Assembly (NCBI GenBank): GCA_017506865.1
Contig: JAFCMP010000517.1
Coordinates: 558,001 to 622,000, forward strand
DNA from: Tribonema minus
Lineage: Eukaryota; Sar; Xanthophyceae; Tribonematales; Tribonemataceae
DNA: 64,000 bases
Reading direction: 5' to 3'
Each line of letters opens with the position of its first letter. Position 1 is the first letter of the stretch. Below, in pieces: positions 11,890 through 56,821 of this stretch. The position numbers and the translations under genes are program-made. The notes below the pieces were generated by a model. That model was not told the DNA's origin, did not search any database, and saw only the letters and a program-made list of their open reading frames with translations.

Positions 11890-14800
11890 ATGGAGCACGA
11901 TGGATACAGCAACGTGCGCATAGAGGGTTCCGCCTTCTCCAAGCCGAGACTGCTGTGCTTGGGGCTGACATTTTTTGGAGCATTCATACTGCTGCTGGCG
12001 ATAGGAGCGGGCGGGCCGGACGTGTGGGTGGTGGAGGGCACCAATGAGAGCGCAACAGTGACTCTGGTAGCTGGATCCACTAGCAACCCCTTTGGCAAGG
12101 ATCGGACGATCAAGCAGGAGAACCAGATATTCTCGGTCAATTCCCGCATCAGCAAACCTGTCTTTGCTGGTATCAACACCACGGACACGGTGAGTTGCAT
12201 TCACCTAGTGATTTTTCACTCTGCCTTTTAACAATCTTCCATCATGATATGTCACATAGAAGCACCAAATTCAATAAACAGTGATAAACGGATCCTCTAT
12301 TTGCACAATGAATAGAAGCCCACATCTTAGGTACAGCTGTGTCAGAGGGATTGTTTCCTTTTGAGGTTTTGAAAGTCAACTCTGGACCCCACACAGGATG
12401 TTTGATTACGCCAGAAGGTGGCAGCTCTTGGGCAGTCAAGTCATGTGTTATTCTGTTCGCAGGATTATTGACTGTCATGCATTCCTCAACTGTTGGTCAC
12501 CCCCCCCGCCCCCGAGCCCTTGAACATGAAACCGTCAGCAAGGAGGTGTGCATTGCAATTGAAGTGTGCACAGCACTCGGACAACTTTGTTTTTGCATCG
12601 ATGATACCAGACATGCATTACCCTTAACCCCTGATGTCTACAGCCAAAGACTTAGACGCTCTGTGGTGTTCGCATTCTGCGTATTTAAAAGCACATAGCT
12701 GCATGCGATGGACGCACAGCGAGCTGGTTTGTCAAATCATTGCCCCCCCTGTGTCAAATCAGAGCAGGCGATCGTCAGCAGCCGCGGCTGCACATCAAGT
12801 GCTCACAGACACATACCCTGGAATAGCAGAGAACCAATGACATCATTCGATGCCACAGTGGCTGTGTCATGAGCCTGATGGAACTGCGCATACTGCAATT
12901 GAGGGGCTTTTGCCAGAGGCAAATGAAATGCAGTGCTGCGTGCAGGTCATAAAGCCTCATTGAGAAGGTGCATCTTGTAAGCAACTCAAGACAGTCTTGT
13001 ACAGTGCGCATTCTCTACTTGGCCATGGTTTATTCTGTCATACGCGTGATCTGTGTTACACTAGGTACTTTTGATGTATCTTGCTCGCACTTTGAATCGA
13101 CTTGGTTGCGTGGCTCAGCACTGGCGTTTCAAAATTCAATAGCAAACTGTCAATCTCTGTCCCCTGCTGGTTAAAGACGAAGTCAGCAGAGATGCCGAGC
13201 GCTGGGCATATGCCTGACTGAACCACATTTTTAATTCCTTTCATGTTTGCTATTGGACATGTTTCATAGGGTTTGATGAAGTAGTATGTTACAAATGCTC
13301 AACTGTCAACACACCGAGTGGCTCCAATGACGTGGACCAGAATAGGATGTGCTGCCCTTACCCTAATGCTCAGCTCCTGCCTGGGCTGCTCTCTCACCGA
13401 GCCAGGCACATATTGGAGCTATACACCTCTCCACTTGAGCTTCACTTGAAGTCAACTTGTGAGCTGATGCAACATAGTGGCATGCTGCAGTAAGATAGAT
13501 AATGAAGTCCGGTGCAGATCGATCTATATGGCTTTATTCTGCTAGTTTATAAATAGTCACGGTAAACGTCTTGTTGCTATTCACCGCTGCTATCAAGTCT
13601 CATTGCTGCCATTGAGAACGCTACCATCAATTCCCATTGCTGCCATTGTTTACAATCATACGTGAACATGTAGGTCATGGCTTTTTTTAATTACAAAATT
13701 GTTGACATTTCCACGGAATGCCTGATGCCTATGTATTACTGTATGCATTTGGTTTCTGATTCCATTACGTGCAGTTGTCAATTAACGGGTAATCATATGC
13801 ACCTGCGATTCAGCCTCAGCAAATGCAGCTGACTTGCAGTAGCTTCTGCTTGATGCGCAACATATTGTGACTCAGATGTTCATGGCAGGGATCACCGCTG
13901 AGCACCGCAATGGCATTCAGTACACTTCAAGTTGCTGACATGTTGTGTTGAAGTGCTGCTACAGTAGCACAAAACGCCAGCGCTAGCGCTCTTGTCCGCC
14001 ATTAGACTACTGCTACTAGGCAGCTACCTGTACACATATGACACTCAAGAATGCAGGAGTGCAGAAGGAGGGTGGCACTTTTCTGTGCATGACGCATGCT
14101 CTAAAATGCGCGATGTGACGGTTCATCGTTACATTATTCAAAGGACACAGGACACCCTCATGACTGCTGGAGAAACTGACTCTGCTTCTCTGTCACATGT
14201 CATTGTCCTTCGCTCACTGCAGCACATTTCAGCGACTCTGGGGCTGGAGTTGACGGTCACTGCGGACGGCAAAGACGTGGTGGACGGGGAGACCGTATAC
14301 AGGGACATACACTGCTACCCAGACGCGCCCTCGGAGAACGGCACGCAGTGGTGCTCGTGGTTTGACACGTACACGGTTGACCTCATTGACGCCACGCAGT
14401 ATGTCATCACGGGGTGGCTCATAGGGCCCGACTACTGGACGCTCTATCAGCTAAACGACACCGCGCTTCACACCGTGCAGCCGGCGTCGGTGAGAGTGGA
14501 GACGCAGGTCTGGTACGTCAACGACGCGTACACCAAGTTTGAGATGGGGTGGAAGTACTTCTTTGTCGTGGTGACGTTCGTCGCGGCGCTGCTGCCGCGG
14601 TGGGGGTACTACATGAAGCTGCGCACGACGCGCCGCAGCACGTGGAGCTTCCAGCAGAAGTGGACCCTGACCCTGCTCATAGGGCTCTTCTGGTTCAACG
14701 ACCCCTTCTTTGCGGCGCGCGTGTACAGTGAGGGGGGCACGCAGCTGGGCTTCACGGCCTTCTACATGCTGTGCGTCCTGGCCTTCATGTCCATGCTGCT

Positions 14801-15449
14801 GCTGTGGTGGCTGTGCGTGTTCTCGGACATGGTCCTCATAGGCGCGCGCGAGGGGGCGGGCGGGGGGCAGGGCTCAGCGCTGCAGCTGCACGGGCGCTGC
14901 TACTGGGCGCCCAAGGCCATACTCGTGGCGGGCATCACGCTGGTCAACGCGGGCGCGTACTTCTACTACCGCTACACCAAGACGGTGTCGCCGGAGTACG
15001 ACGGCGTGAGCGACGCCAAGACGCAGGCCAAGGTGTTTGCGGGGCTGCTGGGGACGCTCATGGCCGTCTACCTGGTGTGGCTAGCGGTTGCGATACTGCG
15101 CGGGTGCGTGTACGTGCAGCGCCTGTCGGCCGCGTACCAGTTCCTCTACTCGATCACCATGGTCACTTTCTTCATTAGCATAGTGGGAGTTTTCACGGCA
15201 GCATTCTATCCATGGTCGACCAGCGGCATCACATTCCTGGGGTTCCACGGTCTGTACAACCTCTACATTTGGACGTTAGCGTTTGCTTATGCGCCCACAG
15301 GCGCCGAGAGGCTCAATTTTGGAATAGGCATGTCTGATCGTGAGCTCATGTCGGTTTCTGCGCCAATGCCAGCAAAGCCCTTGTCGCTGGGGTTCAACAG
15401 CAATGGCGCTGGCAGGGCGTTCAGCCCGGACCGTGATTTCCACGTTTGA
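11890..15449 (+). CDS. TMEM181/Wntless-like multi-pass membrane protein
   Basis: Two exons, 11,890-12,189 and 14,223-15,449, joined in phase 0 across a 2,033-base intron (donor GTGAGT, acceptor CTGCAG), give 508 residues. The start is the ATG in CAGCCATGG. A short cytosolic tail is followed by a first membrane segment at about residues 22-43 (CLGLTFFGAFILLLAIGAG), then a lumenal domain to about 205 with N-glycosylation-like NES and NTT sites. A seven-helix block begins at about 209 (YFFVVVTFVAALLPRWGYY); its second helix has the LFWFNDPFF signature typical of the WLS-like transmembrane domain. The tail from about 455 is hydrophilic. This order, one helix, a lumenal domain and seven helices, is that of TMEM181 and Wntless, sorting receptors of the secretory pathway. 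Algae lack Wnt, so the cargo is unknown. The family call is by motif and topology only. Confidence 0.78.
12190..14222 (+). other. Phase-0 intron of the TMEM181-like gene (2,033 bp)
   Basis: Bounded by ACG|GTGAGT and CTCACTGCAG|CAC. It holds only short frames. A frame continuous with exon 2 runs upstream to 13,992, but its residues do not resemble the family and it lies before a good acceptor, so I treat it as intronic. Confidence 0.7.
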
Positions 15450-42003: not shown

Positions 42004-44376
<2,373 letters not shown>

Positions 44377-45202: not shown

Positions 45203-45206
45203 TTAT

Positions 45207-45607
45207 TGTCACGGTTAGATGCGTAGTTTGGGAACAGTCCATGGGGAACGTTCTCAGTACTGCCGCACAGTTCTATGTCTCAATATACTTATCGTGTGGA
45301 ATTGTCCTAATTGTCTGCTATATGATGTAATAAGGTCTGTAGTTGCTGTAAATCAATAAAGTTGGACCTTGGTTGCTGTCTCACAAGGCCTGGGGTCCCT
45401 TGGACATAGGCGCAGTGCTCAACTGTTGAAGTTGAGTGCTTCAGGGGATCACAACCCAAATAACCAGGCAGCAGAGACGAACCAAGACCACCAACCAGCA
45501 ACGCAGGAGCCTTCTACTGAAGCAGCCCAACAACAACAACCCAAAGTAAGACCGTACCTTGCAGACCATTCACAGAATGATACTCTATATAGTACCAGCT
45601 TGTGTAA
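45207..45607 (+). repeat. 5' LTR
   Basis: 401 bases, TGTCACGG... to ...TTGTGTAA. It contains a polyadenylation-type AATAAA at 45,355-45,360. It is matched base for base by the 3' LTR except for one G/A difference and a missing 9-base GACCTTTGA segment near 45,440. Confidence 0.95.
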
Positions 45608-45609
45608 AC

Positions 45610-45625
45610 TGGCTCCGAAATCAGG
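45610..45625 (+). other. Putative primer-binding site
   Basis: TGGCTCCGAAATCAGG begins two bases after the 5' LTR. TGG is the complement of the tRNA 3' CCA, as expected for minus-strand priming. I cannot say which tRNA it matches. Confidence 0.55.
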
Positions 45626-46627
45626 CGAACCTGCATCTCCTTTCAACGCCTCGCACGCTCACAACACTCGTTCATCCATCCAATACTATCGCTCTACTCG
45701 TAATATTCCATTCTATCACTCGTCCAAAGCACACTTGCCATCGTGGTAGGGGACGCCCGCGCGATTCATTTTCACTTCAATTTCTACTTCATCTCCGAAT
45801 AGACCGAATAGCAACTTGTAGACCTGACTCGCAACATGGCAGCCTCTGGTCCAAGCTACTCTGAGCGCAGAGTATCTGTCATCCATGCATGCGTATGGTC
45901 GGCTTGTCCATCGCATGCGTCGTTGCAGCAACCGTGCCCTGGTTGCGTGTGGTTAACCCGAACCCGCAGCGTTGCCTCAGTCAACTTAGGAACTCTCGAG
46001 CGTGCAACCTCTTGAGTGTCCTGAATTATTAGGACAAGCATTGCAGCAACGTGGCGAGATTATGGGAGCTTGGTACGAGTGTTACGACACTCTATTCCAC
46101 GGGCTGAGCATGTCTTCGATGACTCCCCTCCTTGTTTCTCAGCGCTAGAGAACTGCCAAGCGTAAGCGCCCTGCTGTACACAGTGCGTCTTGAGAGGTTG
46201 AGTTGGCCTCTCTTGTTTGACTTTGCGCCATAGGGTCCTGCATCGTCTTGACCTCGTGAGGTGTGGCATGTAGACTGCCCGCAAAACAAGCTGAAACTCG
46301 CAATGCTACATCCTACGATGCTGCTGTTCCACGTGCGAACTGTGGGCCTCACCACTATCACACTTCAGAACAGTACTTGCAAGGCTCTACGCAGTGTTCC
46401 GGTGGGACGGTTTCACTGGTATCCTTACTTGAACCCAAATTGACAGCATTTCGTGTGTGCTGCCTCACACGTTTTCAACAGTGCCCCAATTGATATCACC
46501 CGCCATTTGCATGTGGCCTCGTGCTATCAGACGCATACACTCACAGCGTATGTAAGCCCAGCATTTATGGCAACTAGTTAGCGTGCCTTGCTAACCTCTT
46601 GCGTTGTATTTTGCTCGACGGGAACAG
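45626..46627 (+). other. Retrotransposon leader
   Basis: About 1 kb of untranslated leader between the primer-binding site and the gag ATG. No long frame; packaging signals would be expected here but cannot be identified by eye. Confidence 0.5.
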
Positions 46628-48643
46628 ATGGCCCACTCCAAAAGAGGGGGGAAGGGAAGGGGAGCCTCCAAGAGGGCCCCTGTCCCCTAGCCCGGCCAAC
46701 CCGATTATGAGCCCGAGTCCTCCGTGGACGACCCCGAGAACGACGACGGCGACGACGCCGCTGCCCCCGACCCCCTCGCTGAGGCTGTGGACGGGGCAGA
46801 CGCCGAGGACGCCGGCGACGACGAGAACAGCAACGATGCCGAAGAGGGCGGCGACGAGGACGCCGAGGCCCCCCTGCCGCCGCCCCCGCTTGACCTCCAT
46901 GTCGACTCTTTCGCCATGGCGACCATCGAAGAGATCCTCACCGGCCTGCACGACTGTGCAACCTCAGGGCTCGAGCGCCTCACCGGTGAGGCAGCTGATT
47001 GCACGGAACGCCTGAAAAGCCTCGAGACGTTGCAGGCTCATGCCAGACGCACGTCGCAGGGCAGCGCGGGCAAGGAGAGAGAAATTGCTAGGTACCAAGT
47101 CCGACTGTCTGCCGTGGAAATCGAACAGTTAACCAATGCCAGGGCTGATTTCGAGCTTCGCGCTGAACAGCCTCGCACGGTTCTGGCCGCGATCACGAGG
47201 GCCCGCGCCCGCGCCCAGCTGCTACGTGACACAACAGATGCAATTGATGTCGAGCGTCGCCTGCGCGCGTTTGCAAAGGACGAAATGCCTGCCATGCTGG
47301 CCTCGCCTGTTGGCCGCGCTCACCTTCGCAAGAAGGGGGAGTCGCGCGTCAATGACATTAACGGCGGTGGCAGTGCTGACAGCATTGCTGAGGGCCCTGC
47401 TGTGGTTCGTCCCCTAAACCCACGTGATTATTCCACTGCTAAAGACCTCGGACTGGTGAACCCCATGTCCAGGGTGGCGGGCGAATGCGGCGGCACCCTG
47501 GACGGCCTGCACGCGGCGCTGGTGGAGTCGGGCATTGACCCACGCGCTTACTCCACGGCCCTGGCTAAGGCGGCGCAAAAGGCGAACAAGGTGACCCCGT
47601 CTCTCACGATAGACGTGGGTGGCCGTGTCATTGGCTGGGTTGCCATGGACTACACGCAGCGCCGTGCAGCTCTAATCGCGCATTTCGATAACCCAACTGC
47701 TCAGGCTGATGCCGCGCGCGCATTTGCTACCCTCTTGCGCGCGCACCGTGAGAACCCGCGTGACTTCAACCTGCGACTGACGCGCCTCGGCCGCGCAGCT
47801 GGGTACAAGAACAACACGGACTACGTCCGATCTCGCTTCATCGAGAACTTAACCCCCGCTGAGCGCAAGGGTCTGAGCATCACTGTTGACAACGTGTACG
47901 CCGAGGCGCTTTCCGTGCTTGCCAGCAAGGCTCACAGCTTATGGAGCAACAGGAACGGCAAGGGCTCAGCAGACGACGCCAACTCGACTGACGCCAGCGT
48001 CTCCGACAGCGACTCATCCGGCACGCGCCGCAACCAGAGCAAGAAGCGCAAGGCGCGTTCCAGCAAGGGCCGCCGCGCCGTCAAGACAGCTGCTGCAAAG
48101 AAGACCGCGGCGACCACCGCCGCAGCGGCGGCTGCCGCCGCCGCCGCCGCGCCGATCCCCAGGCCGCAGGCGGGGCCGCCCCGCCGCTTTCGGGCCCCAA
48201 ACGCCCGCGGCTTGCCGATGCGCCCCCGTGACCCCTCGTGGTACTGCGAGAACGGCGACTGGCGCTGCCACAACTGCGAGTCGTGGGTACCTTCGGGCAT
48301 CATGCCGGCCTGGCACAAGGCGCAGCCGGAGTGCTCGGAGGCGGCCATTATCTTACACCAGGGCCGCCTGGACGCGCGCAACCGTGGCATGCGGCCTGCG
48401 GCGCCCCCCGGTGGCCCGATGCCGCAGCGCCCCCTCGCGGCGCCGCTGCAGTTCCGCGCCCCGGCGCCCCTTGCGCCCGCACCTCAGGCCCCGGCGCCGC
48501 GCGTCAACGCCGCGCGCCCGATCGGCGAGCTGAGCCGTGACGAGCTGGCGGCGTACATCATGACCCTGCCCCCATGTGAGAACACGCTTGATGCAGGCAC
48601 TGCAGCACCTGCCCTAGTTGCTGACGCCAGTAGGCGTGCCTGA
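46628..48643 (+). CDS. gag: Gag-like protein, interrupted by an early in-frame TAG
   Basis: The first ATG (46,628) opens a basic N-terminus, MAHSKRGGKGRGASKRAPVP, which meets TAG at 46,688. The same frame then stays open to 48,643; the next in-frame ATG is at 46,917. An acidic region follows (DDPENDDGDD...), then a capsid-like helical region whose end (DFNLRLTRLGRAAGYKNNTD, then FIENLTPAERKGL) resembles the retrotransposon Gag capsid C-terminus. Next come a Ser/Asp patch, a basic nuclear-signal-like KKRKARSSKGRRAVK, and a zinc-finger-like CHNC-x12-H-x5-C near 48,269-48,330. The tail is Pro/Ala-rich. Gag should assemble the particle and bind element RNA. The TAG is either a knock-out mutation or a suppressible stop. 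Confidence 0.8.
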
Positions 48644-51600
48644 CATACGCGTGTTGCTTGCTGCACTGATTGCCCCTGCGGCTACAGCACCTCCGTTGAG
48701 CGCTGCTGCACCTGTAGGTGATGAACGCATGCCTAGGGACGCGCTAGTACATGGTGCACTAGCCTCTCCCCCCAATATTGCCGATGTTGAAATGCTTGAC
48801 ACGTGCGTTGCCCCAGGCGGGGTAGATGCAGTTGTGCCATCAGCTGTTGATGATGCTTCAGGTATGCCCACTGTAGAGGCTGCCCAAAACGCCACCATGA
48901 GCGCCGACAATCTTGCAGTTTCGCTGACTGCAGCACCTGTTGTCGTGCCTGTTGGTGACCGTGCTCCACAGAGACCCCAGACCGTTGAGACGGCGCTTGG
49001 GACTGCGCGGTTAGTCGTCCACGCATCACTCTGCTGCGGCCTTGGAGGCTGGGACGAAGGACTAGAACAGGTAGGAAGAGCTGGGCTCGCGGTTAAAACT
49101 GCACTTGCCGTTGACAAGTGTAGCCGCGTTTGCGCAGCCTACAGCTCTCTTCACCCTGAAGTTGATAGTGTCATGCAGTCATGTCTTAGCGATCCTGCCG
49201 TTACCAAGGCACTGGTGACATTGGATCCTGACCTGACCACTATCTCCCCCCCTTGCACCGACTTTGCAAACGGTTTGCAGATGGAGGGCGAAGCCGCCCA
49301 AGTGACATTACTCGCCGCGCAGCTTATTATCAGGGCCAAGCTGCGCTGCGTGTTGATTGAGAACGTCGTCGCCATGCTCAGCTCCAAGATTTGGCGCCAG
49401 GCGCAGGCGCAGCTGCTGACGCACGGTTATTGCGTGTACATTTCCAAGCTCAAGGGATCGGACTTCGGTGTGCCTTGCCACCGTCGCCGAGTTTATGTCC
49501 TGATTGTGCGCACCGGCCCCTCTGTTGGGGCAGCGCTCGACCGTTTTGGCGCCCTTTTAAATGCAATTGAACGTGCCAGTCCGCAGACCTCTGTGCGTGC
49601 GTTTTTGCGCTGCCCTGAGACAACATTCTTTTGGAAGCCCCGTGCGAGGGGTTTCAAGGCCGTGTTTGACGCTGATGATTGCATGCCCAGCCCTGTGCGT
49701 AGACACCCAGGGAAGCCCCCACGGGACCTGCTGGCTCATGTGCCCTGTGTACTTGATGCTGGTCCAGTGGATGCCGCGCGCGAGCGGCTGTCGCTGAAGG
49801 AGCTTGCTGTATTGCTCACCTTCACAAAGCCATTGCCAACATGTGCCAGGGTTGAAGATTTGAAGTTGTGGCTTGTCAACATGGTTATGCCTCGCATGGC
49901 ATTCCACCTTGGCGTAGCGCTGCTGGGATCTGGTGTATTTGACTTGCCCCCGGTTGCTGAGCATGAGTGCTTGAACCCAAGAGGCCACCGCGTAGACCAC
50001 GACTGCACTGCACCCCCGCCCGAATGGATGGCAGTGAGTCAAGGCAAGCACATGCACGTCGCTGAAAACCCCCAGTCAGTTCGCATTTCGCGACTGCAAC
50101 TTGCGCAGTTTGAGACTGAGCGGTGGGACTACCAGCCCCCCACGTATGACCCCGAAATGGATGACTTACCAGACCTTGTGGACTCTGATGATGAGTCTGA
50201 AGCTGGTGACGTGCCAGAGCTCGTGGAGGACTCAGACAATGACTCTGACTCTGACAGGGCTGACTCGCATGACCTAGATACCGACGACCTGACCAGCCCA
50301 ACCCCACTTGAGCTGGCACGCCAACTAGGGTTAGGCAGTGCTAGGGTTAGCGCTATGGCCGCCGTACTGAGAGAGCTCGAGTCGGTGCAGCGCGCGCGCA
50401 ACCAGCACTCTGTGCTGCCCACTGACGCAACAAACACCGCAGGGGAACTGCCTGCCGCATTGCGCGCACCCATGCCTAATGAGCCACAGCGCTCATCGCA
50501 TGAAGCGCCCATGCCTAATGAGCCGCAGCGCTCATCGCATGAAGGTGCTACACACACTGAATTGCCCGCAGTAAAGGAACTACATGTGGCGTTGCGCGCA
50601 TTTATGCCCGATGAGCCGCAGCGCTCATCGCAGAAAGGCGCTACACAGTTTGAATTGCCCGCAATTGCCCGCGTGTCCGCTCCCAATGAGCCTGGACGTG
50701 CCTACGAACGTGTGATGCAGCCTACTGGAAAGCCCAGCAAACAGCGGTTCGGTACGCTGATTGCACGCACCCAGAAACATGGCCAATGGGCATTGAAGGA
50801 AGTTGAGTTTAAAGCCCTGCTGGACAGCGGCTCAGAAACTTCAATAATGTCAATGACACAAGCGAATGCTATTGCTTCGGGAGCAGTAGGCCCACTTGAA
50901 AAGCGGGACCACACGGTCATTGAACTTGCTGACGACTCTACGCTAGTCAAGATACAGGGTGTATTCCACTCCACTTTGCGGTTTGGAGACTTCCTCGTAC
51001 AGCACAAGTTTTATGTTGTGAATCTTGAGATTCCCGCCATTGTTGGTGGTGACTTCTTTGGCATGTACCACTCAACATTTAACTACGCCGAGATGACGTA
51101 TGCCCCGCTAGGCGCCAAAGGCCCTACGCTGCGCATGAGGGAACGCACCGACGCTGAAGGCCACCAGAAGGTCAGCTCAGTGCAGACCACTGGCAGGCAG
51201 ACACTGCTAGTGGGCGAAGCCAGTGGCCCACCACCGGCGCGCCGCGCAGTGAGTATGACAGAAGACGTGCTACTGCCCCCCAACTCGACTACTGATGTTG
51301 AAGTTGCACCCTTCCCCCCCATCATGGGGGTACAGCCTTTTGAAGCTGTGATTCGCCCCATTGACACACAGACACTGCTCGCCCTAGGCGACCGCGGTGT
51401 TAAAGTGGCTGAGAGTATGGTGATCGCTAGGCCCTGCTGTACTATGCAAGTACGCCTGGTGAACCACTCGCACCTGCCTGTTGTGGTACCCAGAAGCACC
51501 TTGTTAGGGGAGCTGACACCTGCTGATAAGGAAGACATCATTGAATTTGATGACGTCACGGAGCCGCTGCTGATGGACAAGCTGTTAGAAGCTAGTTCTG

Positions 51601-52214
51601 AGCTGCACCCTGACCCAGTCTTCAGAATGGCGTCGCTGCGCGCACTTCATACCTTGCGGACTCAGGCTGTCGCAGCCAACTCCGCTGGAGGTAAAGATGA
51701 GAACGCGTGCCCCGTTGCATCGGCCACTGCAAGTGCTCGAGAGTCAGTCCCAACTACCCGGACCACTCAAGAAGCGTGCACGGAAGAAGAACTCCGAGAA
51801 ATGCTGCCAAAGACTGGCGAGCTGTACGGTATTGCAAAAGATGGTCGCACCTACGCCGACCACCTTATGGATGTGATACTGGAGCACTCCACTGTCTTTG
51901 CCAAGGACCCCAAGAATCCCACAGTTACAAACCTGGCGGAGTTCGAAATTGACACTGGTGATGCCATGCCCATTGCTGAAAAGGCAAGAAGGTGGGCACA
52001 GAAAGAAGCAGAGTACATCATGGATCATGTGCGCGCCATGGCGGTGCGCAACCAAGTCGAGCCCTCCTCGGGCCCTTGGGCATGCAATCCTGTCTTAGCC
52101 AGGCAAGGTGACAAGATCCGCTTCTGTGTGGACTTTCGAAGGCTGAATGCGGTCACCAAGCGCGACTGCCGAGGCATTGGCAACATAGACGATATGATAC
52201 ACAAAATGAAGGGG
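48618..52214 (+). CDS. pol: Pol part 1: C5 cytosine DNA methyltransferase, aspartic protease, N-terminal reverse transcriptase
   Basis: This frame overlaps the 3' end of gag by 26 bases in the +1 frame and has no ATG before 48,729, so +1 frameshifting or reinitiation is likely. Domains: C5 methyltransferase (49,010-49,940), an acidic Asp/Ser stretch (50,150-50,290), short tandem repeats of the type PNEPQRSSHE (50,470-50,640), a retropepsin-like protease with catalytic ALLDSGSE at about 50,815-50,837, and the start of reverse transcriptase (KIRFCVDFRRLNAVTKRD near 52,115). The frame leaves the RT sequence at a GGGG run at 52,211-52,214, after which RT continues one frame over. The open frame runs on to 52,352 but is no longer RT-like. 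Confidence 0.9.
49010..49940 (+). other. C5 cytosine DNA methyltransferase domain within Pol
   Basis: Motif I SLCCGLGGW (49,026-49,052) binds S-adenosylmethionine. Motif IV carries the catalytic PPC (49,248-49,256) in TTISPPCTDFANG. Motif VI ENV is at 49,359-49,367, and motif VIII is VPCHRRRVYVL with HRRR at 49,479-49,490. A degenerate motif X, LVNMVMPRMAFHLGVALL, lies at about 49,872-49,925. The key catalytic residues are present and the domain is about 310 residues, the size of a compact bacterial or DNMT catalytic domain without regulatory modules. Expected activity is 5-methylation of cytosine in DNA. I cannot place it in a particular DNMT clade. Confidence 0.93.
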
Positions 52215-55200
52215 CCAAATACATATCCTCCATGGATATGGCTGGCGCCTATCATCAAGTGCCAATCAGAGGATGTGACAAGGAAAAGACCGCATTCAGA
52301 ACACCTGATGGAGGTCTGTGGCAGTACACCGTGGCACCATTTGGACTGGTGAACTTGCCTGCACAGTTCACCAGACTGATGCATGACGTACTGGGTGAGG
52401 AGACATTGAGCAGCTACGCATCGGTCTACATCGACGATGTATTGATATATGATCACACAATTGAGGAACACATTGCCCACATTCGTGAAGTGCTGAGGCG
52501 CATCAAGAATGGTGGCATGAGTGTGGCCAGGCACAAGTGTCTCCTCTTCAAGAATGAAATTAAGTTCTTGGGACACATTGTGGGGGCCAATGGCTTACGC
52601 CCAGACCCTGAGAAATTGAAAGCGATGATGGACATGAGCAACCCCACTAAAAATGGGAAGGCTGACAAGAAACTGGTGCAGACAGTGCTGGGCTGCTTCA
52701 ACTACTACCGCCGGTATGTGCGCGACTTTGCAGCACCTGCCGCACCGCTAGTTGAATGCACCAAGACGAATGCAGATATGATTTGGGATGCGCGCAGACA
52801 AAAAGCATATAATGGCTTGAAAGCAGCCATGTGCTCTGCGGAGCTAATAGCCCACCCAGACTTCAACTTGCCGTTTGTGCTGTACACTGACGCGTCACAA
52901 ACCGCATGCAGCGGCATACTGACACAATTCAAGCCTGTAAAGCAGTTGGCAGGGAATGAAGCTGCACCGGGCCCCGCACCGGGACGCCGGCGCACTGTTG
53001 AAGGGGAGGAGGTAAAGGAGGTGGTTGTGGGTTATTTTTCAAAAATTAACTCCGTACAAGATGCAAAGCTGGGGGCCACTGCTCTGGAATGCCTAGCAGT
53101 TGTCTTGTCCCTGAACCACTACCGCCCATATGTGTGGGGTATGCCCATCACAGTGGTCACAGATGCTGCAGCATTACGCTGGCTCTTGACATTGCAAGAC
53201 AACAGTGGAAAGCTCATGCGCTGGGCAATGCGGCTGCTTGAGTATGACATCTCAGTGCAGCACCGCCCGGGCCTCGCAAATTCAAATGCTGATGGCCCAT
53301 CACGGCTGCCTATGCAATCAGAGCTTGATACGCCACGCCTGTATGATCATGCCGACGAGCAATGGTCAGATGCCATACCATGCTACGAGGCGCCACCCTC
53401 GGGGGTTACGTTCACGGACGAACTCCCCAAGCAGCCCTCGGTCAAGGTTTCGGCCTTCCGAGGACGCATGGTGAGCACTGAGTACGGCGTGCCTTTTGAC
53501 TGCAACGAGCTAGCTATTGCAAGCGCCAGCGAGCACAACAGTCTTGCAGCGCGCCTTGCAAAGCTTTCAGTCAAAGAAACAATTGAACTGCTGGACGAAA
53601 CGTTTGATGAGACTTTGCGACAAGATGACGGGGGAACCCCATCTCTAGCACTACTCACACCTGCTACCATGGGTATGTATGCCAACGCGTGCATGGACGA
53701 GGCTAGAAGCACGTCTCATGACGGCAGTGCCGGCCAGCCCAGTGTAGCCAGACAGAGGGCAGCAAAGAAAGCGCGCACGGCTGCTAGCAGCGCTCAGCCT
53801 GAGGCCGCCACCCCTGGCAGCGCTCAGCTTGCTGACGCAATGAGCGCTGACGCAGAGCCGTCAGACCGCAGCAAGAAGCGCAAGATGCCGAGGCCCGCGC
53901 CAGCCCTCGTACAAGAGGTGATCGCAGGCCAGACCATGCCTACGCCAGCTATGCTGAGCAGGGAGGCAGTGATTGAAGTGCAACAGACCGATCCATTCTG
54001 CGCTGCCGTGCTGCGCGTGGTCCTAGGAGGTGCACTCCCCCAGGATAGCGAGCTGGCATTGCACCTGATGACAAATCAGGAATGGTACAATCAAGAAGAT
54101 GATGGCCTACTTGTACACTTTGCCACTAGTCACCCAAAGCGTGGCCAGGTGCTGAAGCAGTGGGTAGTGCCCAACAGCCTGCGCGCCCTAGTCTTGAGGT
54201 TGGGCCATGATGATGCCACAGCGAGCCATGCTGGCGTTGGCGCCACTCAACTGCGCATATTTGAGCGCTGGTTTTGGCCCAAAATGAACCAGGACATACG
54301 CGCATACGTGATTAGCTGCACCGCGTGCTTGGAGCGTAAAAAGGCTGGGACTGGCAAGGCCAAGCAAATGCTGGTGCCCCCCACGCGCTTACTCCAACGC
54401 GCGCACACTGACATCACCATGGCCTGTATTAAGTCCAGCGAGGGACATGTAGGCCTCATAACGGTGATGGATAGCCTCAGCGGCTTTGTGTGGATGTGCC
54501 CTATCAAAGACAAAACTTGCAAGACAGTTGCCCGCTTCTTGTTCAAAGTGTTCTTGGAGATGGGTGCGCTGTTTGAAGAACTGGTCTCAGACCAAGGAAA
54601 AGAATTCTTGAATGCGGTTGTGGCCGATTTGGTCACGATCTTCAAGGTGAAGAAGATTGACGCCAGTGCCTACCACCCCCAGTCAAATGGAGTGGCTGAG
54701 CGCATGAATGAGAGAATCATGGCAGCTCTGACGGCTTGGGTGAATGTCAAGCAAGACAACTGGCACGAGGGTGTTGAAGCCATACAGTACGCATTGCGCA
54801 GTACACCACGCGAGGGGACGGGTCTCACACCCTTCTTTTGCATGTATGGTCGCGAAGCGTCACTGCCATACGACGCTTTCATGCAAGATGACCGCCCGAG
54901 TGAGCTCAACGCGGAGATTGAGCGCAGAATCTCAAATCTGCGCTTAGCGCACCAGGTTGCCCACGACGCTTTTGAGCGCAAGGCAGAAAGAGTGTCACGC
55001 CACAATGAGGCCGTCAAGCGCGCGCAGCGCGTGCAAGTTGGGGACTTGGTCATGATACGAAAGGCCAATGAGAAGGGCCGCTCAAAGAAGCTTGACCCCA
55101 AGTTTCTGGGCCCCTGGGTGGTGATCACTGACGCCGGTGACCAAGGCCTGTCGTTCTCCTGTCGCATGATGGGCAGACGCATTCGCCGCACCCGTGCACA

Positions 55201-55828
55201 TGTGATGAATATGAAGCCGTTTCACTTGCGCCCAGAGCACCTGGAGGCCACTGACCCCCACGCGATGCTCACTGAGGAGCAACTGAAAGATGTCCCGCTC
55301 AACGAGTGGTTGTACCGCCTGGCGGACCGCCGCGCGAATGCCAATGGCTCGTGGGACTACCGTTGGGTGACCAGAGATGGATCCCTTAGCGGGTGGAAAA
55401 CTGAAGACGAGGCGCTCGAGTTGATCATGCCCTGGACGCTGGATGTGTTTCACGCGCTCTATGAGCTGCGCCGGGCTGATGACATGCCAGATTATGCCCA
55501 ACGTACTCCACGAGAGGACCGACGGGTAATGACCAAGGATGCTGCGCTGACACTGATTCCAATGGGCACTCAAGTCGTGCGCAAGCACCGTGAGAGCCTG
55601 CTGCAACATGTGACATACATATGGGGATCAGTGGCAGGGTACGCCGCGCCATACTGGCGTGTACGCTATGAAGACAGTGACTGGGAGGACTTCACAAAGA
55701 AGCAGCTTTTGGGTGCCATTGCCTTAGCAGAGTCAGTGCGCGCGCGCGCCACCGCTCTGGGCCGCGTATACTGGCCAAATTGTACGTGTCAGGATGGGAA
55801 CGGGCTGGAGCCGCGGAGAGCTGGTTGA
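52215..55828 (+). CDS. pol: Pol part 2: reverse transcriptase, RNase H, integrase, Tudor-like tail
   Basis: Continues RT as SSMDMAGAYHQVPI, with the catalytic YIDD at 52,427-52,438. RNase H follows with YTDASQ (Asp at 52,889), the ECLAVV Glu, the VVTDAAALRWLL Asp and HRPGLANSNADGPSR. A linker (53,400-53,960) contains basic nuclear-signal-like patches (SKKRKMPRP). Integrase has a zinc-binding H-x6-H and C-x2-C (GHDDATASH and SCTACLE) and a DDE core: AHTDIT (about 54,402), SDQGKEF (about 54,586) and VAERMN (about 54,692). A GPY/F-like LGPWVV near 55,108 follows. At 55,560-55,720 a Tudor-like module reads GSVAGYAAPYWRVRYEDSDW then EDFTKKQLL. The frame stops at 55,828 but family-like sequence continues in the next frame. 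Confidence 0.9.
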
Positions 55829-56069
55829 ATTCATGCCCCGCGCCAGCAAGTTCACGTTTCGAATTCGCTTCAATGGCATGCCGGCTCAGCAGTTGACTAC
55901 GGTCAAGCTGAGGCCTGACTACTACGTTGCGGCCAGCTCCGCTGAGGTGGGCAGCTGCCCCATGTCGAGCTGGAATTTATTGCTGACCACCGTTGGGAGC
56001 ACAGGTGCTGCCCAAGAGGTCATTGACATTGAAGTTGAAGATGAGACTGAGACACAGCTCATCACTTGA
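55773..56069 (+). CDS. Frame-shifted Pol C-terminal tail
   Basis: One frame over from pol part 2, an open frame reads TGQIVRVRMGTGWSRGELVE, then SKFTFRIRFN and TVKLRPDYYV, and ends in an acidic tail and TGA at 56,069. The beta-rich, SH3/Tudor-like pattern suggests it is the natural continuation of the Pol C-terminus, cut off by an indel at about 55,730-55,775. It could alternatively be a small separate product. Confidence 0.45.
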   Translation, partial: GQIVRVRMGTGWSRGELVEFMPRASKFTFRIRFNGMPAQQLTTVKLRPDYYVAASSAEVGSCPMSSWNLLLTTVGSTGAAQEVIDIEVEDETETQLIT

Positions 56070-56394
56070 AGTGACTGTTGCAGTAGCATGCTGTTGCATC
56101 GCTCCGATGAACACATGTTACAACTTTGAAGATGCGTCGCGTGAGACCAAGACTTGTGCCCGAGAGCAGCAAGTACGGCACGCGTACTCATACTGCCAGG
56201 CCCCCTTGTGACCCTGCCAAAATGGAGGACCGATCACATTTTGGGTAGCAGCCTGTTCATATGAGTTGAGGGTGACAATTGGTCAAAGCAGAATTACGTT
56301 TACATTTCTAACCGTTGTTTAATCACTGGTCAGCGTTGATCCCTGCCAAGTGTGCTCAGTGCATAGACGCGGTTCGCTCTAGTGCACAGAGCCT

Positions 56395-56406
56395 GAAAAG
56401 GGGGAG
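56395..56406 (+). other. Polypurine tract
   Basis: GAAAAGGGGGAG lies immediately upstream of the 3' LTR and is the expected primer for plus-strand synthesis. Confidence 0.85.
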
Positions 56407-56407
56407 T

Positions 56408-56817
56408 TGTCACGGTTAGATGCGTAGTTTGGGAACAGTCCATGGGGAACGTTCTCAGTACTGCCGCACAGTTCTATGTCTCAATATACTTATCGTGTGG
56501 AATTGTCCTAATTGTCTGCTATATGATGTAATAAGGTCTGTAGTTGCTGTAAATCAATAAAGTTGGACCTTGGTTGCTGTCTCACAAGGCCTGGGGTCCC
56601 TTGGACATAGGCGCAGTACTCAACTGTTGAAGTTGAGTGCTGACCTTTGATCAGGGGATCACAACCCAAATAACCAGGCAGCAGAGACGAACCAAGACCA
56701 CCAACCAGCAACGCAGGAGCCTTCTACTGAAGCAGCCCAACAACAACAACCCAAAGTAAGACCGTACCTTGCAGACCATTCACAGAATGATACTCTATAT
56801 AGTACCAGCTTGTGTAA
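56408..56817 (+). repeat. 3' LTR
   Basis: 410 bases, TGTCACGG... to ...TTGTGTAA, with AATAAA at 56,556-56,561. It is flanked downstream by TTAT at 56,818-56,821, matching the TTAT before the 5' LTR. Confidence 0.95.
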
Positions 56818-56821
56818 TTAT

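Follow-up and report, generated by a model that had tools for sequence, protein, structure and literature searches.

Predicted cytosine-C5 DNA methyltransferases carried by Gypsy-type LTR retrotransposons in the alga Tribonema minus

Tribonema minus is a xanthophyte alga, and a 64,000-nt stretch of its assembly GCA_017506865.1 (contig JAFCMP010000517.1, positions 558,001 to 622,000, forward strand) is referred to below as the window, whose own numbering is used for all window coordinates. The window contains an 11.6-kb long terminal repeat (LTR) retrotransposon of the Ty3/Gypsy type (45207-56817), which encodes a C5-methyltransferase (DNA methyltransferase, DNMT) between Gag and protease. From its sequence, structure prediction and relatives in the genome we conclude that this is a catalytically equipped, conserved and selected enzyme encoded inside Gag-Pol. 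The element belongs to a clade of DNMT-bearing families, designated type 1. A second DNMT-bearing Gypsy lineage of the same genome is designated type 2.

A methyltransferase domain inside Gag-Pol

The domain lies in the first part of the pol open reading frame (ORF):

48618..52352, plus strand: pol ORF, first part (DNMT, linker, protease and the start of the reverse transcriptase, RT)
48993..49940, plus strand: C5-methyltransferase domain, motifs I-X (PF00145 match at 49023-49514, motifs, predicted fold)

PF00145 matches this ORF with 53.8 bits (E-value 2.7e-14, cut-off 22). A previous interpretation made from the DNA letters alone (the sequence-only reading) had recognized motifs I, IV, VI and VIII of a C5-methyltransferase here; all of them sit where it placed them, and motif II is present as well. 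In the 12 aligned element sequences (10 of type 1, 2 of type 2), the catalytic Cys, the Glu of ENV and both Arg residues of motif VIII (RxR) are kept without exception. The AlphaFold model of the domain (predicted local distance difference test, pLDDT, 83.5; predicted template modeling score, pTM, 0.84) matched C5-methyltransferases in a fold search (best E-value 1.8e-11), and its best match in a viral structure library was a siphovirus methyltransferase (E-value 2.1e-17). A 15-row sequence profile, which took in two prokaryote-like rows (P0006 and P0007), detected 50 PDB sequences at E-value ≤1e-3, all of them named C5-methyltransferases (bacterial, DNMT2 or DNMT1-type) and none named DNMT3. 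The domain also matched a DNA methyltransferase family in PHROGs (1.2e-19) and, below the cut-off of that model, dcm in NCBIfam (1.5e-11). The possibility raised by the sequence-only reading itself, a failure to align with C5-methyltransferases, is thus contradicted by both the profile and the fold searches.

Architecture of the window element

The remaining parts of the element, apart from the C-terminal blocks considered further below, are as follows:

45207..45607, plus strand: 5' LTR (401 nt), with TTAT just before it (45203-45206)
45610..45625, plus strand: candidate primer binding site, TGG-type, two bases past the 5' LTR, without a tRNA match (deduced from the sequence)
46691..48643, plus strand: gag ORF, 650 aa, with a C-rich knuckle-like stretch
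50796..51059, plus strand: aspartic protease (weak Pfam match to PF09668, E-value 0.013, below its cut-off)
52112..55828, plus strand: pol ORF, second part, in another frame (RT, RNase H, integrase; clear Pfam matches)
52187..52582, plus strand: RT (Pfam)
52859..53245, plus strand: RNase H (Pfam)
54167..54343, plus strand: integrase zinc domain (Pfam)
54392..54655, plus strand: integrase core (Pfam)
55728..56069, plus strand: ORF with the remainder of the conserved C-terminal region, in another frame (no Pfam match)
56395..56407, plus strand: polypurine tract upstream of the 3' LTR (read from the sequence)
56408..56817, plus strand: 3' LTR (410 nt), with TTAT just after it (56818-56821)

The pol domains follow the Gypsy order (protease, RT, RNase H, integrase), the protease match being weak, and the Ty3/Gypsy label is based on this order and the Pfam matches rather than on a reference RT set. 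No strong Pfam match was found for the gag ORF. The sequence-only reading had delimited the element as 48618..52214; this range covers the 5' part of pol and leaves out gag upstream and most of RT, RNase H and integrase, which lie downstream in a different frame. Its description of the LTRs as near-identical was accurate: a single substitution and a 9-nt indel separate the two copies. The direct LTRs start with TG and end with AA rather than CA, and TTAT on their outer sides constitutes a target-site duplication. The LTRs suggest that the window copy is a recent insertion. However recent, this copy is probably defective, because three reading-frame breaks, which had previously escaped attention, fall in the overlaps 48618-48643, 52112-52352 and 55728-55828. 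Within the linker between DNMT and protease (50472-50663) there are short in-frame repeats of MPNEPQRSSHE-like units.

Type-1 families in the genome

We queried the 158-Mb assembly with the domain and scored the best 108 of 476 candidate matches, 101 of which are free of internal stops. Identity to the window domain falls into steps of 98-100% (eight places including the window), 58-67%, 54% (one place), 47-49% and 40-43%. To establish the gene order, 15 stretches of 9.9 kb around domain matches were read. The order DNMT, protease, RT is seen in 13 of them, and a further locus (L013) is broken up, yet still has DNMT and protease. Similarity to gag was detected in 6 of the 15, and five (L009, L010, L019, L020 and L023, representing three identity classes) display the full order gag, DNMT, protease, RT/RNase H, integrase. 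Protease similarity is shared across families. In the window family, the frame from gag to the linker between protease and RT is uninterrupted over 4.1 kb in four of eight loci (L002, L004, L006 and L007); in other families, among the matches listed, open frames reach 3,376 aa. Two further families (L059 and L060), found through Pfam, score about 250 bits against the type-1 hidden Markov model (HMM) and have RT and RNase H after DNMT.

The reverse approach gave a similar picture. When the best 105 of 618 candidate matches to a type-1 RT query were scored, 81 had a listed DNMT 2.5-3.4 kb upstream. Among the other 24, five start within 3 kb of a contig start one (L068) revealed a frame-split DNMT on checking, and one (L069, taken up below) has none at the expected place.

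The lone-copy scenario, a chance insertion into a single pol gene, is therefore contradicted by at least 108 genomic matches and by the recurring order DNMT, protease, RT. More generally, an artefact, be it bacterial contamination or an accident of one copy, is barely credible. The prokaryotic or metagenomic affiliation of the nearest relatives outside the elements (see below) might be taken as a hint of it, but the type-1 matches listed are spread over many contigs of the algal assembly, the window contig also carries actin-like and Wntless-like ORFs, and the element is bounded by LTRs and the TTAT duplication; these results already speak against it.

Two apparent oddities were discarded. One locus (L018, C507:596400-606300) seemed to lack a Gypsy RT, having instead a LINE-like RT in frame right after gag-DNMT; it was read as a nested insertion in an element that is 98.5% identical to L019 over 4964 columns. 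A 6208-aa open frame (L057, C311:9800-11400), considered as a tandem fusion, carries no weight, since the stretch enters a run of N.

A second DNMT-bearing Gypsy lineage

Pfam matches led to elements of a different kind (L061 and L062), in which a protease-like stretch (DTGAS...IIG) is followed by DNMT (PF00145 over positions 3-320), RT and RNase H. The protease-like motif was recognized by eye and had no Pfam match (L105). L061 has a match to integrase; a chromodomain match (PF00385, 5.5e-8) comes from L067, which lies downstream of L062. With the type-2 DNMT as the query, the best 122 of 393 candidates were scored, giving 125 rows (53 of them longer than 900 nt) that merge into at least 91 places. 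Among the 64 listed RT rows of 61% identity or more to type 2, 58 are preceded by a type-2 DNMT at a distance of 1.5-3.9 kb.

The position between Gag and protease, as given by the sequence-only reading, therefore holds for type 1, to which the window element belongs, but not for type 2, where the DNMT sits between the protease-like motif and RT. DNMTs thus occupy two positions of pol within one genome. The two types share only 21-27% identity in DNMT and 30-36% in RT, and the type-1 HMM reports neither L061 nor L062 at E-value ≤1. We consider two separate captures likely. The claim is not put more strongly because a DNMT tree uniting both types in one clade was not rejected by the approximately unbiased (AU) test (p = 0.433).

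Another 20 RT rows, of 36-37% identity to type 2, have neither a type-2 DNMT upstream nor any DNMT nearby among the matches listed. This Gypsy-like lineage (e.g. C292:7481-8698 and C214:55715-56932), with open frames of up to 3455 aa, appears, within those matches, to offer a natural DNMT-less control.

Selection and common descent

Ratios of nonsynonymous to synonymous substitution rates (dN/dS) were computed by the NG86 (Nei-Gojobori) method. For DNMT they are 0.13-0.15 between L009/L011 and L010 as well as between L012/L013/L022 and L014/L015, 0.17-0.19 between the window family and L009/L011 (at dS of about 1.7, near saturation), and 0.16-0.26 for close pairs (dS 0.04-0.10). The protease of L012 versus L014/L015 gave 0.03-0.04. 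We conclude from these ratios that the DNMT is under purifying selection, to a lesser degree than RT (compared below).

DNMT and RT trees share the starred groups window+L009+L010, L009+L010, L012+L014 and L059+L060. In the DNMT tree, the L009+L010 group also takes in the metagenomic sequences P0001 and P0008, and L016+L017 is starred there while unresolved in the RT tree. No conflict was found between starred groups of the two trees. Since they share groups without such conflict, the DNMT was most likely present before these families split.

Origin of the enzyme

We placed the domain in a DNMT tree of 44 rows, including 12 of the 35 bacterial and 4 of the 8 viral loci fetched and no eukaryotic DNMT1, DNMT3 or DNMT5; bacterial rows were fetched with P0009-like queries, so their sampling is biased. 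Type 1 forms a single group (100/100), whose nearest outsiders are the metagenomic sequences P0006, P0007, P0009 and P0010 (93/96). Type 2 and a Bacteroidota/Pseudomonadota/Bacillota group attach to these only through a weak branch (75/89). Other metagenomic sequences are closer to type 1 (P0001-P0005 and P0008, 61-72% identity), and in P0001 and P0008 the sequence continues beyond the DNMT into what by eye is a protease-like stretch.

A viral origin was considered as well. Scans of IMG/VR with the domain and with P0006 detected no relative, a viral scan with A3 returned eight loci at 25-32%, and the domain had a 25.6% match in one phage record. We left the origin at prokaryote/phage-type: the type-1 enzyme looks like one of these, which does not imply direct transfer. 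The DNMT type supports the suggestion of an acquisition separate from those known: none of the 50 PDB matches is named DNMT3, and the nearest kin are metagenomic or prokaryotic, as compared in a tree devoid of DNMT3 and SymbioLINE rows.

Intronless C5-DNMT ORFs also occur outside elements (L052 at C223, ~937874-938371; L053; L054), with PF00145 scores of 131 bits for L052 and 116 bits for L053. L052 adjoins an ORF for a deoxynucleotide monophosphate kinase (PF21448, 2.8e-21), and its region is possibly an endogenous viral segment. In addition, an exon-split C5-methyltransferase gene (L055, C523:358815-359333), with a GNSINV motif at the end of its last stretch, is on account of that motif presumably the host DNMT2.

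A probable Tudor domain after integrase

Type-1 elements have about 300 residues in common beyond integrase. Two blocks were delineated there in the window element:

55310..55423, plus strand: weakly chromodomain-like block (profile against PDB chromodomain chains, best E-value 0.02)
55616..55708, plus strand: Tudor-like domain, PF21743 (PTM/DIR17-like Tudor), 20.1 bits, cut-off 27.2

PF21743 matches six of seven type-1 C-termini at E-value ≤0.1 (best 1.9e-5), two of the loci, L013 and L058, being of one family. A Tudor domain after integrase is therefore regarded as a probable feature of type 1. A single-sequence model of the C-terminal region (pLDDT 35.6) was of no use. A limited search of the open-licence literature found no earlier report of DNMT and Tudor within one polyprotein, and such pairing of a writer (DNMT) with a probable reader (Tudor) is probably new. 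It suggests chromatin-directed integration.

Traces of methylation and the host machinery

When the eight close copies are compared, 246 of 18849 CpG site pairs (1.31%) carry a transition, against 258 of 50612 (0.51%) at other C/G positions, as counted over 28 copy pairs that are not independent and without a DNMT-less control family. The excess is compatible with CG methylation of the copies, whichever enzyme is responsible.

The same excess among young copies, together with the many copies in several families with conserved catalytic residues, would also suit an element that restrains itself, methylating its own copies so that lower expression and host cost favor long coexistence. The present data do not separate restraint from protection or targeting, and the nearly identical LTRs in the window imply that the family moved recently; we regard self-restraint as unlikely.

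As for the host, the published account credits T. minus with DNMT5, HELLS, a CDCA7-like protein and a member of a clade labeled DNMT4, and states that DNMT1 has been lost; DNMT5 is a maintenance enzyme in Cryptococcus (PMC10538959; this and the other articles are cited from the excerpts available). The excerpts of that article say nothing on DNMT3 in this alga.

Proposed role of the element-encoded enzyme

We lean, by a modest degree, towards the following interpretation: type-1 elements form a clade whose Gag-Pol includes a prokaryote/phage-type DNMT and a probable Tudor domain, and the enzyme methylates the cDNA or the insertion site, aiding new copies. A role in self-methylation is plausible. 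By analogy with general retroelement biology, the DNMT would travel in the Gag particle and be freed from the polyprotein by the protease. Its targets might then be cytosines (in a CG context, as a guess) in freshly synthesized cDNA or at the insertion site, and a new copy so marked could be taken for resident host DNA or have its chromatin set by the mark. The C-terminal reader may steer integration. Given the reported presence of DNMT5 and loss of DNMT1 in the host (PMC10538959, available excerpt), DNMT5 could copy the mark.

A number of observations weigh against this interpretation. At the level of the enzyme, motif X of type 1 is degenerate, as the sequence-only reading had noted (motif IX is recognizable in the type-1 alignment), motif IV varies (TPC, APC and SSC in three families) and motif I of L016 lacks one Gly. 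The target-recognition region is modeled poorly, residues ~215-257 being unreliable, and the single domain sequence detected no PDB chain at 1e-3. The DNMT evolves faster than RT (dN/dS of 0.13 versus 0.04-0.05 for the same pairs, two having been computed), and for the most distant pairs, L009/L011 versus L018, its ratio rises to 0.32. The Tudor match scores under the curated cut-off. The CpG observed/expected ratio is 0.84 in the element versus 0.71 in the rest of the window, which indicates no special depletion. Finally, a type-1-like locus (L069, C323:451800-454300; RT 66%, with a protease-like stretch) has no DNMT at the expected place. DNMT may consequently be dispensable, and L069 could represent either a loss or a pre-capture relative.

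Some of these points would suit a passenger domain, kept as a spacer of the polyprotein and catalytically dead or unimportant, namely the state of motifs X and IV and the absence of a visible DNMT in L069. Invariant catalytic residues in all 12 rows, dN/dS values mostly of 0.13-0.19 and the presence of DNMT in a second lineage argue against it, making it quite improbable. The substrate could alternatively be RNA (genomic RNA or the primer tRNA, as for DNMT2) rather than DNA. DNMT2 structures rank among the best profile and fold matches, and for SymbioLINE the option of RNA methylation was brought up by de Mendoza et al. (PMC5890265, available excerpt), but the nearest kin in sequence are DNA-methyltransferase-like prokaryotic and metagenomic proteins, and we rate an RNA substrate as rather unlikely.

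Methylation of cDNA or insertion sites by type-1 elements may be part of a broader phenomenon. With about 200 matched DNMT places and two likely captures, T. minus retrotransposons could be the main source of new cytosine methylation, DNMT5 copying the marks and Tudor or chromo modules reading chromatin. This extension is a long shot. If true, one transposon would unite writer and reader and would account for where new methylation arises in a genome lacking the standard de novo enzymes.

Relation to known elements

DNMT-carrying retrotransposons are already known from dinoflagellates and a green alga (de Mendoza 2018, PMC5890265, available excerpt). The expectation that the window represents a secondary-plastid alga other than the dinoflagellates and charophytes was borne out by the identity of the host. 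For this branch of life, our limited search of open-licence literature found no earlier report. The known range now takes in a stramenopile alga, and the enzyme there resembles the prokaryote/phage type and not DNMT3.

The closest counterpart, as far as the excerpt of PMC5890265 describes it, is KnitGypsy-Dnmt3 of Klebsormidium nitens. It likewise combines the LTR Gypsy domain set with a C5-DNMT within its Pol ORF, and purifying selection on that DNMT is reported (Ka/Ks < 0.2). It is set apart, by description, by its Dnmt3 class and DIRS-like repeat arrangement. The Tribonema element gave no match to DNMT3, has plain LTRs, belongs to a different host lineage, encodes its DNMT ahead of the protease and carries a Tudor-like domain. 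In Symbiodinium, SymbioDIRS-Dnmt3 and SymbioLINE-Dnmt are also retrotransposons with many intronless DNMT copies, but are described there as DIRS (tyrosine recombinase) and LINE elements with enzymes of the Dnmt3 and an orphan class; the LTRs and integrase of the Tribonema element do not conform to the LINE structure of SymbioLINE-Dnmt. According to the same excerpt, SymbioDIRS enzymes performed de novo CG methylation in yeast, while for KnitGypsy and SymbioLINE no methylation was detectable, a result that its authors called inconclusive.

Gypsy-10_Ec32 of Ectocarpus is likewise a Gypsy element from a stramenopile alga; it has a Tudor domain at its C-terminus, as type 1 probably does, and a T. 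minus homolog is reported; compared by description only, it differs in that the available excerpt of PMC12477816 mentions no C5-DNMT. Other mobile elements with a DNA methyltransferase, the Dam-like enzymes of DIRS (PMC5890265) and the ParB-MTase of Sola1-1_Ec32 (PMC12477816), are in the excerpts of adenine- or N4-type and belong to other element classes. Judged against the known kind, what is new here is the host lineage, the enzyme type, the use of a second insertion site within this genome, and the probable pairing with a reader. Capture on more than one occasion would speak for a benefit of methyltransferases to retroelements; the choice between protection, stealth, targeting and self-restraint therefore becomes testable in a culturable alga, and transformation is reported for T. 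minus (PMC7139823, available excerpt).

Neighboring genes in the window

Two host ORFs flank the element at some distance on its 5' side. An actin-like ORF, recognized by eye, lies on the minus strand (42440-43669), and a Wntless-like ORF with a PF06664 match on the plus strand (13968-15449). Over 83% of its length, the 493-aa ORF at 13968-15446 shares 100% identity with a Wnt-secretion-factor-like protein of Tribonema minus.

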